In this document: positions 10,882 through 28,530 of the stretch, one piece after another
Layout: every line of letters starts with the position of its first letter
Numbering within the stretch: the first letter of the stretch is position 1
Made by a program: the position numbers and the translations under genes
Notes under the pieces: model-generated
Told to the model about the DNA's origin: nothing
The model's database searches: none
What the model saw: the letters and a program-made list of their open reading frames with translations, nothing else
NCBI RefSeq assembly: GCF_018919395.1
Contig: NZ_JAHLME010000003.1
Span: 930,001 to 994,000, forward strand
Source of the DNA: Geomonas azotofigens
Lineage (GTDB): Bacteria; Desulfobacterota; Desulfuromonadia; Geobacterales; Geobacteraceae
Direction of reading: 5' to 3'
DNA: 64,000 nucleotides

Positions 10882-10935
10882 TCCCATCCTTCCCATCCTT
10901 CCCATCCTTCCCATCCTTCCCATCACTCCCATTGT
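10882..10935. repeat. 9-bp tandem repeat TCCCATCCT
   Basis: Four perfect head-to-tail copies of TCCCATCCT are followed by two degenerate ones. It lies between the convergent transferase and yhaV-like genes and shows no coding potential. Confidence 0.8.
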
Positions 10936-26264: not shown

Positions 26265-27179
26265 GTGGCTATGCCCAGTCCATCCGCACATAGAGACGTT
26301 ATCAGTCGGGCCCGGGGAGCCTTCCTCGGCCTCGCGGCTGGCGATGCGCTTGGGGCTCCGGTCGAGTTCATGACCCGCGGCGAGATAAAGGACAAGTACG
26401 GTGTCCTGAAGGAGATGGTCGGAGGCGGCTGGCTCAGGTTGAAACCCGGGCAGGTCACCGATGATACCGAGATGTCTCTTTGCCTGGCGCGGGCAACCGT
26501 CGGGGCGGGGGGATGGAACCTGAAGGCGGCGGCTGAGCACCTCGCGGGATGGCTTAAGTCAAAGCCCATCGACGTCGGTGACACCTGCCGGCGCGGCATC
26601 AGGAATTATATGCTGCACGGGATGTTGGAGACTCCCCCCAACGAATGGGACGGCGGCAACGGTGCCGCCATGCGGACGCTGCCCGTCGCTCTCTGCACCG
26701 TTGGCGACGATCTGTTACTGGAGCGCTTGACTCTCGAACAGGCCCATCTAACCCACAACCATCCCTACTCCGATGCGGCCTCCATATACCTTGGTCGACT
26801 GCTGCATTTGGCGCTTACAGGGCGCTCCATGCTGCAACTGCGCAGGGAGGCGGACCAACTCATCTCCCTGCACCCTTCCTTTTCATTTGATCCGTACAAA
26901 GGCCTGGCCACGGGCTACGTGGTGGACACCATGCAAACCGTCTTTCACTGTTTCTTCCGGTCGCGCTCTTTTGAAGGGTGCGTCATCGAGACCGTCAACC
27001 AGGGTGGCGATGCGGACACGACTGGCGCCATAGCAGGCGCCCTTGCTGGTGCCTATTATGGAGAAGAGGGCATACCAGTCCGATGGAGGAAAAAACTGGC
27101 AAAGGAGATGGCTGCCGAGGTCTCAGATCTTGCCGAACGCTTGGTCCGCTTGTCGCCTTTGTTGCAGGATGGACGGTGA
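26265..27179 (+). CDS. draG: DraG, ADP-ribosyl-[dinitrogen reductase] glycohydrolase
   Basis: 304 residues; start is GTG 26265 or ATG 26271, with no strong ribosome site. DraG removes ADP-ribose from the regulatory Arg of NifH and so reactivates nitrogenase. The ARH fold is shown by the N-terminal ARGAFLGLAAGDALGAPVEF, the metal-binding VTDDTEMSL and the C-terminal NQGGDADTTGAIAGALAGAYYG, which carry the dimanganese ligands. Encoded opposite and convergent to draT, with a 21-bp repeat array between them. DraT and DraG are usually co-transcribed in other diazotrophs, so this arrangement is unusual. Confidence 0.92.
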   Translation: MAMPSPSAHRDVISRARGAFLGLAAGDALGAPVEFMTRGEIKDKYGVLKEMVGGGWLRLKPGQVTDDTEMSLCLARATVGAGGWNLKAAAEHLAGWLKSKPIDVGDTCRRGIRNYMLHGMLETPPNEWDGGNGAAMRTLPVALCTVGDDLLLERLTLEQAHLTHNHPYSDAASIYLGRLLHLALTGRSMLQLRREADQLISLHPSFSFDPYKGLATGYVVDTMQTVFHCFFRSRSFEGCVIETVNQGGDADTTGAIAGALAGAYYGEEGIPVRWRKKLAKEMAAEVSDLAERLVRLSPLLQDGR

Positions 27180-27225
27180 CCACGGAGAGCGCAGAGACGG
27201 ATCGTGTGCCCGGTCAGATAACACG

Positions 27226-27624
27226 TCTATCGCGGTCGACAACTTGTTTATCGCGATAGATAACTTCTCTACCGGGATTTATAACTTATATATCGCTCTT
27301 CAGAAGTTGTGAATCGCTGTTTAGAAGTTATGAACAGCCCTCCAGAAGTTGTAACTCGCTCTCCAGAAGTTGTAACTCGCTCTTCAGAAGTTCTGAACCG
27401 CTCTGCAGAAGTTCTGAACCGCTCTTCAGAAGTTATGAATCGCTCTTTAGAAGTTATGAATCGGTCTCCAGAAGATGTAACTCGCTCTCCATAAGTTATG
27501 AATAGCTCTTCAGAAGTTATGAATCGGTCTCCAGAAGATGTAAATCGCGGTCAATAAAACCTGAATCGCGATTGAGATGTTGTGACTCGCGGTTGATAAC
27601 TTCTGAATCGCGATACATAACTTA
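27226..27624. repeat. Array of nineteen 21-bp tandem repeats between draG and draT
   Basis: Nineteen consecutive units of exactly 21 bp with no insertion or deletion. Central units begin TGAATCGCTCT and end CAGAAGTTA. The outer units (1-3, 18, 19) instead contain ATCGCGAT palindromes and end ATAACTTC-like, which is the reverse complement of the central GAAGTTAT. One frame has TGA or TAA at the start of nearly every unit. The other two plus-strand frames are interrupted too, so long coding is unlikely; a 61-codon frame of heptads (EVMNRSP-like) exists at 27309-27494. The flanks 27180-27225 and 27625-27738 hold no recognised gene. Confidence 0.9.
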
Positions 27625-27738
27625 TGTGCAGGAATTGATGATTTTTACTGCCGCGATTAATGAATCGTCAGTCGCCAATGATGACCTATCACTCGCGACA
27701 GACGAGTCGGGCTGTCCTATCGGTGAGTTGGAACGAAC

Positions 27739-28530
27739 CTAAACCGTGCACATGAGCCGCTTGACCCGGTACTCTCCGCCGATTACGAGGCATTCTCCCT
27801 CACCCTTCAGGATGGAGTTGGGCAACAGCTCGCTGTAGAAGAACACCTTCGCCAGTGGAACTTGCACCTGCCACACGACGAAGCCGAACTCCCAGGCGCG
27901 CTCCTCGTCCGTCGTGAACGAGTTGAGGTTGTTGAGGCGCACGATCTCCTCCCGCTTCGATATGGTCTCCAGGACATCATATTCGGAACGGTCGAAGGTG
28001 CCGCGGTACAGGGTGAGGTGCTTCCGGTCGGGGTACCTCTTGGTAAGCTCGTACTGGGAGTATTCGTAGAGGAGGTCGAGTTGGGAATTGATCGCCGAAG
28101 TGCGGGCGCTCCCCTTGGTACGGTCCACCGCGTATTGAAGGTAATTTTCGTCGTGGATTCCCGTGATGCGCACGTTGTGAAAGGTGGGCGCCAGCCCCAT
28201 CCTGCTCTCGACCCACCCCTTCAGCACCGCCCCCTCCACCGAGTTCGAGTCCATCATCCAGCCCCGTAGAAAACGCAGGTAGCTGTTTTTGAGACTCTTG
28301 CGGGCGGTAGCGGTTTCCTGCTGCCATTGGTGCAACTGGAACTTGACGGACATGTAGTCGTTAAAGACCGAGGCGCGTTCCTCATGCGACGCGATGCCGT
28401 CCAGTTTTTCGAACAGGAACCGGTTCACGGCACGCACGCCCTGGATCTCCAAGAGCTGTGGGTTGTCGTTGAAATGGCGGGAAGCGATGACCCAAGGTGG
28501 GAGGTTGCAGTGGTTGAATGAATTCTCCAT
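27739..28530 (-). CDS. draT: DraT, NAD+-dinitrogen reductase ADP-ribosyltransferase
   Basis: 263 residues. DraT ADP-ribosylates the Arg next to the NifH 4Fe-4S cluster when ammonium or darkness/energy signals appear, switching nitrogenase off. The family opening FNHCNLPPWVIASRHFN and EIQGVRAVNRFLF is clear. Candidate R-S-E catalytic elements are LYRGTFDRSEYD, NSFTTDEERAWEFG and GECLVIGGEYRV. It follows the nifX-like gene by 65 bases on the same strand, so it is probably the last gene of the nifH operon. Confidence 0.92.
   Translation of the reverse strand: MENSFNHCNLPPWVIASRHFNDNPQLLEIQGVRAVNRFLFEKLDGIASHEERASVFNDYMSVKFQLHQWQQETATARKSLKNSYLRFLRGWMMDSNSVEGAVLKGWVESRMGLAPTFHNVRITGIHDENYLQYAVDRTKGSARTSAINSQLDLLYEYSQYELTKRYPDRKHLTLYRGTFDRSEYDVLETISKREEIVRLNNLNSFTTDEERAWEFGFVVWQVQVPLAKVFFYSELLPNSILKGEGECLVIGGEYRVKRLMCTV

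Follow-up and report, generated by a model that had tools for sequence, protein, structure and literature searches.

A 21-bp tandem array between draG and draT of Geomonas azotofigens belongs to an array family associated with genes of an uncharacterised protein family

The 21-bp array between draG and draT

The stretch of DNA analysed here, 64,000 nucleotides of Geomonas azotofigens (contig NZ_JAHLME010000003.1, positions 930,001 to 994,000; hereafter the window), carries the convergent genes draG and draT of the nitrogenase ADP-ribosylation switch and, in the 559-bp gap between them, a tandem array of 21-bp units. The array belongs to a family of such arrays and is an orphan within it. Most of the family arrays that we found lie downstream of genes of an uncharacterised protein family, and the units differ from one paralog to another. 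Four features of the family are described below: linkage to these genes, a fixed unit length, co-divergence of protein and array, and orphan sites at which an array stands without the gene.

A preliminary description of the window had reported nineteen exact 21-bp units between draG and draT. Tiling, Tandem Repeats Finder (TRF) and a shuffle test all agree with this, and matches to TIGR02662, PF03747 and PF07357 establish the convergent flanks (Table 1). The array is tiled by contiguous 21-mers with zero indels, and TRF returned a period of 21 with 0% indels at 27292-27548 and 27561-27623. Identity at lag 21 reached 280 of 378 positions, whereas 200 dinucleotide-preserving shuffles averaged 96 and did not exceed 117, and the highest value for another 399-bp segment of the window was 170 (segments sampled every 21 bp, with 26.8-28 kb excluded). 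When 19 chunks of the window served as controls, a score of at least 0.62 at lag 21 was reached by the array itself and by no other (runner-up 0.60); one other chunk scored 0.71 at lag 18. The register appears to extend on both sides as degenerate units, to about 27205 and about 27729, and the periodic island measures 455 bp. Several outer units carry ATCGCG(AT) and ATAACTTC/A and the central ones GAAGTT, a partition that had been described before and is visible in the unit sequences. Because the units are contiguous, without spacers, the array lacks the combination of constant repeats and unique spacers that defines clustered regularly interspaced short palindromic repeats (CRISPR). Its units run head to tail and its copy number differs among relatives, as in tandem repeats or minisatellites (variable number tandem repeats, VNTRs). 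Elsewhere in the window, at 10882-10932, TRF detected 5.7 tandem copies of TCCCATCCT with 95% matches.

Table 1. Features of the draG-draT region (positions in the window; a dot marks features without a strand)
Feature	Position	Strand	Basis
draG, ADP-ribosyl-[dinitrogen reductase] hydrolase	26265..27179	+	TIGR02662 (E 1e-133); PF03747
19 x 21-bp tandem array, orphan of the genus-wide array family	27226..27624	.	tiling, TRF, shuffles
Left outer units, ATCGCG-like block and AACTT block	27226..27288	.	sequence
12 central units, TRF consensus ATCGCTCTTCAGAAGTTATGA, second block in complementary orientation (GAAGTT)	27289..27540	.	
Right outer units, ATCGCG-like block; ATAACTTC/A block in the last two	27541..27624	.	
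Five more degenerate 21-mers in the same register, CGCGAT / GACTC-like remnants	27625..27729	.	sequence; periodic island
draT, dinitrogenase reductase ADP-ribosyltransferase	27739..28530	-	PF07357 (E 4.9e-116)

We then compared this gap across the genus. The draT gene is present in 19/19 genomes, and the gap to draG was readable in 18 of them, G008 being excluded for a contig end. A 21-bp array occupies the gap in nine species (G000, which is the genome of the window, G002, G005, G006, G007, G009, G010, G011 and G013). In 8/18 species the gap is array-free and measures 1-117 bp. The gap of G014, which was left out of the array comparison, consists of 1320 bp of other sequence with no 21-bp array; it holds a different repeat (AAAAGTGAAGCTTTTT-like) and an apparent extra open reading frame (ORF). 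Across the nine species the units differ strongly in sequence and number 11-22 copies, and the register is interrupted by three steps of 20 bp in G011 and by one of 22 bp in G002. The frame that is open through the array, where there is any, varies by species, and orthologous arrays encode different peptides. Because the open frames differ and half of the species lack the array, we conclude that the locus is neither coding nor universal, and that the 21-bp rule is mostly kept amid sequence turnover. The preliminary description had named two observations that would speak against its interpretation, namely random copy number with broken register, and a relative in which the array is one open frame. 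Both were borne out in part. Copy number does vary and the register is broken in two species, yet the 21-bp rule mostly persists; an open frame does run through the array in some relatives, though open frames of this kind are to be expected by chance, and they vary from species to species.

A function peculiar to the nitrogenase switch is not supported: the array is found at this site in only 9/18 species, and the same arrays lie behind a gene family and between two other genes, which we take to be mnmE and mnmG. We consider it highly improbable, for similar reasons, that the array is a bidirectional terminator or buffer that evolved specifically between convergent draG and draT. The position between convergent genes would suit such an element, and the gap folds better than shuffled sequence on both strands (z -5.5 plus, -3.3 minus). 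However, a scan for terminator-like sites (a GC-rich hairpin followed by a T run) gave 0 in 27100-27800, like arrays lie between mnmE and mnmG, which are on the same strand, and behind the family genes, and half of the species have no array at the site.

Arrays downstream of an uncharacterised gene family

A search of the own genome with the draG-draT array yielded two further arrays at strong E-values, at mnmE-mnmG and on contig 15; beyond other arrays, only 15-18-bp matches were obtained. In the own genome and 18 relatives we recorded 17 distinct array places. Seven of these have an ORF of one family in the flank examined, and an eighth (L145) has a divergent member. This ORF family received no Pfam or NCBIfam assignment. 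A protein search of the own genome returned five copies, each with a 21-bp array 131-179 bp past its stop codon. The units differ among the five, and the most divergent copy is followed by no more than about 4-6 of them.

To quantify this linkage, an 11-row profile (A2) was used, which gave 92 matches in 19/19 genomes of the genus; 90 of them were examined together with eight from two other genera, leaving the partial match G005:C10:53986 and the match G016:C15:495900 out of the tally. Copies were divided into well-conserved (E < 1e-28) and divergent (E > 1e-15), a split set after the gap in E-values had been seen. One of the 71 well-conserved copies (L188) was dropped as too near a contig end, which left 70 assessable. 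Periods of 12-60 bp were scanned, an array was sought within 1 kb downstream, and counts were compared by Fisher test. An array was present downstream of 60/70 well-conserved copies, or of 53/63 once the seven seeds, which had been found via their arrays, are set aside. All 60 arrays have a period of 21 (55) or 42 (5). An array follows 4/27 divergent copies (periods 20, 20, 21 and 41) and occurs in 2/29 upstream controls taken from well-conserved copies. The median distance from stop codon to array start is 142 bp (10th-90th percentile 83-219, n=61). The genome G003 holds the arrays of L187, L224 and L236, and 20-bp arrays were seen at L266 (G017) and L275 (G041).

A second, wider profile (A4) identified at least 14 copies in the own genome, of which ten were examined. 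Seven of the ten have a period of 21 or 42 downstream, two of them weakly, one has a period of 41, and two have no array downstream. Four own-genome loci (L283, L284, L285 and L289) were inspected outside the tally; the weak periods of 21 or 42 are those downstream of L284 and L285. L289 (G000:C4:34778-35404) is a divergent paralog with a fibronectin-III (FnIII) domain and is followed by a near-perfect 41-bp array (lag-41 identity 0.984, about 2 x 20.5 bp).

A hairpin with z < -2 against mononucleotide shuffles stands between stop codon and array in 41/60 cases, so the array may lie outside the mRNA of the gene. Within the 75 bp after the stop codon this hairpin is often of the form GGGRTGCC-loop-GGCAYCCC, for example at L184, L190, L213, L226 and L233.

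The N-terminal domain of the proteins is predicted to be a helical bundle followed by a disordered tail (predicted local distance difference test, pLDDT, 83), and a longer form carries a C-terminal domain predicted to be FnIII (pLDDT 92). Several tails are basic (e.g. KRGRARAK, RRGRPRVKK) and resemble AT-hooks. Pfam and NCBIfam scans of a few family proteins gave no DNA-binding family domain, and the scans of family members contained a single weak match to a homing endonuclease (E 0.061). A4 counts at least 9-21 copies for each genome of the genus and at least 14 for the own genome, lower bounds since at most about 21 candidates were scored per genome in the search of the order. Within that order, 21/141 genomes matched with A2 and 22/141 with A4. 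In a phylum sample of 297 genomes, which held no other members of the genus and in which about 10 candidates were scored per genome, the sole A4 match was the own genome. Plasmids and phages gave no match to the family proteins, and of 10 pattern hits in viral contigs 0 were confirmed as family. A short unit pattern compared with genome contigs gave single matches in scattered taxa among the matches listed, which we take as chance. Similar helical-FnIII proteins may occur in Bacteroidetes and Verrucomicrobia.

Using three arrays as queries, we found four gene-less arrays in the own genome: at draG-draT (C12), at mnmE-mnmG (C1:583k), at C13:133.5k and at C1:1142k, the last two belonging to two other array types. 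The family gene is absent from the stretches examined around all four. The mnmE-mnmG array is present in 9/19 genomes, with G011 a borderline non-call (0.62). Presence at draG-draT and at mnmE-mnmG coincides in the 18 genomes compared (8 with both, 8 with neither, and 1 and 1 with a single one), which may come from phylogeny. G018, which has neither orphan array, has only a degenerate gene-linked array, at L197 (0.62 at lag 21). Orphan arrays resemble the gene-linked arrays of their own genome. For draG-draT, the own-genome best ranks were 1, 1, 1, 2, 3, 4, 5, 13 and 26 of 59 (species permutation p 0.003, phylogeny uncontrolled), and for mnmE-mnmG they were 1, 1, 1, 2, 2, 3, 5, 9 and 15 of 59 (p 0.010, likewise uncontrolled for phylogeny). 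The arrays of C16 and C13 match each other near-equally at all unit shifts tried (0.80-0.86), which does not suggest recent copying position by position.

Repeats that have a cognate gene and also occur at other places without it are likewise what a domesticated mobile system would produce, one whose protein copies arrays to new sites or maintains them there, as REP-associated tyrosine transposases (RAYTs) do for REPINs. The persistence of fixed sites across species fits the vertical inheritance described for RAYTs in the portions of PMC8049555 consulted. Dispersal of this kind is nevertheless very unlikely in our view: no transposase domain (tyrosine Y1/HUH) appeared in scans of a few members with Pfam (8 members), NCBIfam (2) and PADLOC (3), the three queries revealed no more than four arrays without the gene in the own genome, and the family gene is multicopy whereas RAYTs are single-copy.

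Unit length and divergence of the arrays

Sixty-nine arrays were submitted to TRF, which allows indels, and 66 were called. Indels were at 0% in 59/66. Periods were multiples of 21 in 65/66, with one of 83, and the best period was 42 or 63 in 21/66. As the 69 arrays had been preselected for a period of 21 or 42, these periods are not independent evidence, and the indel figures and the open scan of periods are the better guide. Chaining of units, a procedure that penalises spacings other than 21, gave 1006/1014 spacings of exactly 21, with 8 that differ, alongside at least 1521 substitutions. Copy number ranges across arrays from 4 to 27 units. The earlier observation that unit length is kept more strictly than sequence thus holds both at draG-draT and throughout the family.

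A skeleton of two blocks, CGCG and AAGTT at a distance of about 10 bp, is common to 59 gene-linked units with a score of 427, compared with 192-219 for eight column-shuffled controls run with fewer restarts. Shared descent contributes to this skeleton. Array similarity tracks protein similarity (r 0.65, Mantel p 0.0005): the mean was 0.62 for close relatives across genomes, 0.40 for distant paralogs across genomes and 0.41 for arrays of the same genome.

The main rival explanation is that the arrays are neutral or selfish minisatellites, spread by slippage and unequal exchange, carried along with a duplicated gene family and made uniform by gene conversion, both inside a locus and from one locus to another, in which 21 bp is kept by copying and not by selection. 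The wide range of copy numbers and the patchy presence at both orphan sites would be expected of such sequences, the TRF periods of 42 and 63 point to duplicated groups of units, and gene conversion would likewise make arrays of one genome alike. We nonetheless regard this as unlikely. Indels are few and substitutions many, even where units are only about 70% like the consensus; paralogous arrays within a genome are not homogenised overall, as the means of 0.41 and 0.40 indicate; the arrays share a single location, behind the genes of one family; and there is no positional homology between the C16 and C13 arrays.

Since 21 bp corresponds to seven codons, a heptapeptide repeat protein or its remnant was also considered. 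At draG-draT there are stops in each plus frame, as had been noted, but the minus strand had been overlooked: the longest open run is 81 aa on the plus strand and 93 aa on the minus strand. Among 53 arrays of at least nine units, 38 have at least one of the six frames open throughout. Against coding, no frame is consistent (each skeleton-phased frame is open in 4 to 20 of the 53 arrays, so that the lack of a fixed reading frame claimed at the outset stands, even the commonest being open in only 20), orthologous arrays give different peptides, and open frames are expected by chance, with a calculated probability of about 0.71 per frame in homogeneous arrays. We give this explanation a negligible probability.

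A structured RNA had likewise been suggested, and the folding of the draG-draT gap is in its favour. Family-wide, however, the mean z is only -0.50 in the sense and -1.0 in the antisense orientation, and tandem quasi-palindromic units fold well anyway. An RNA-level element, either a transcribed, structured and multivalent RNA to which the protein encoded next to it would bind, or a source of ~21-nt RNAs, would also have to be reconciled with the hairpin that separates gene and array in most cases. At draG-draT no promoter-like site was found and Rfam gave no match up to E 1 in 27100-27800, and the draG-draT query found nothing in the own genome other than the arrays and short matches described above. 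We therefore judge an RNA element to be rather improbable.

Interpretation and comparison with known systems

Our tentative preference is for reading the arrays as helically phased binding sites of the proteins encoded beside them, with the draG-draT array as an orphan member. A helically phased protein-binding array was among the roles first proposed, and the initial interpretation is thus partly supported. The 21-bp unit, which spans two DNA turns and bears its two conserved blocks about 10 bp apart, would be what the cognate protein recognises, repeated along the array, and some 20 units on one face of the DNA would seed a cooperative nucleoprotein patch. At a gene-linked array this patch might serve autoregulation or anchoring; at orphan sites it might separate adjacent transcription units, as a boundary or road-block. 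The protein would diverge together with its site, which would explain a fixed length and position combined with a fast-changing sequence. In favour of this reading we count the linkage of genes and arrays, the strict unit length, the common two-block skeleton, the parallel between array and protein similarity, the likeness of orphans to linked arrays of the same genome, the shift-independent match of the C16 and C13 arrays, the AT-hook-like tails and the hairpin after the stop codon. We infer that the protein binds its array, that binding is cooperative and follows the helical phase, and that orphans act as boundaries.

Several observations weigh against binding by the linked proteins. Binding itself is only inferred. 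No clear structural relative of the helical domain was found and no DNA-binding fold was recognised; the net charge of 38 tails is only -2 to +4, some being neutral or negative, and the FnIII forms bear that domain in place of the short tail. Ten of the 70 well-conserved copies have no array in the examined stretch: two of these have an array upstream, one has it about 900 bp downstream, one has a degenerate array and four have nothing, and in the remaining two the sequence ended at 208 and 319 bp. In the own genome, C12:328k (L282) and C15:25.7k (L283) have no downstream array and show 21-bp periodicity upstream instead (0.75 and 0.89 at lag 21), and another copy has the 41-bp period. When both strands are allowed, 21/59 units fit the skeleton better reversed. 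The draG-draT array is missing in 9/18 species. The own-genome match is poor for 2/9 draG-draT arrays (G010, rank 26; G007, rank 13) and for 2/9 mnmE-mnmG arrays (G013, rank 9; G006, rank 15), and the permutation tests ignore phylogeny.

In its broadest form the proposal is of a previously unrecognised protein-DNA system, in which helical-bundle paralogs, with an FnIII domain or a short tail, each have a private, co-diverging array of 21-bp sites downstream and matching arrays in trans between other genes, so that a chromosome would hold several orthogonal, helically phased nucleoprotein patches, one such patch keeping apart the two arms of the nitrogenase ADP-ribosylation switch. We regard this as possible but somewhat doubtful. 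If the arrays do bind their linked proteins, each genome would contain many orthogonal protein-site pairs, arisen by duplication at a fixed two-turn spacing. Such pairs would be a natural experiment on the divergence of protein-DNA specificity, and they might represent a kind of chromosome-organising element not described before. The presence of an array amid a nitrogen-fixation switch would then be explained without nitrogen regulation, and multicopy intergenic repeats noted in Geobacter bemidjiensis in 2010 would become a testable system.

In ParB-parS, ParR-parC and iteron-Rep systems, a protein gene lies beside a short direct-repeat array that the protein binds. The same adjacency is seen here for 60/70 well-conserved copies, though not at the draG-draT orphan itself. 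Those systems use known DNA-binding families and have few copies per replicon, whereas here there are at least 9-21 paralogs per genome, often with about 20 units, no DNA-binding domain was recognised, and binding is putative. The BIME/REP gyrase sites of enterobacteria (bacterial interspersed mosaic elements; repetitive extragenic palindromes) are also repeats in the intergenic space between convergent genes; unlike the present arrays, they are not 21-bp tandem repeats and have no linked cognate gene.

The arrays resemble REPIN-RAYT systems in combining a repeat population with a cognate chromosomal gene, in vertical inheritance and in dispersed gene-less copies, but REPINs, according to the parts of PMC8049555 consulted, are hairpin elements that a tyrosine transposase, present in single copy, duplicates. 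In the present case the units are 21-bp tandem repeats, the gene family is multicopy, and the scans found no transposase domain.

Repeats have been described in related bacteria. Intergenic direct repeats of 6-42 nt were reported in 2010 as multicopy features of G. bemidjiensis, now Citrifermentans bemidjiense, mostly in families without counterparts in G. sulfurreducens or G. metallireducens (PMC2996986, in part). They too are direct and intergenic, and some of the present arrays were probably catalogued among them; the sections of that account consulted neither state a strict 21-bp rule nor connect the repeats with a protein family, and they report no match between orphan and gene-linked arrays. 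Heptanucleotide and octanucleotide elements are on record for G. metallireducens (PMC2700814, in part), and the Geomonas nif cluster has been described with draG, fdxN and draT (PMC10746287, in part). A limited search of the open-access literature, including portions of PMC2700814, PMC3403914, PMC10746287, PMC8049555, PMC2996986 and PMC2907700, found no published link of 21-bp arrays to a protein. Each of the nearest known kinds has a defining feature that the pairing of gene and array lacked when tested, though repeats of such a class had been noticed before.
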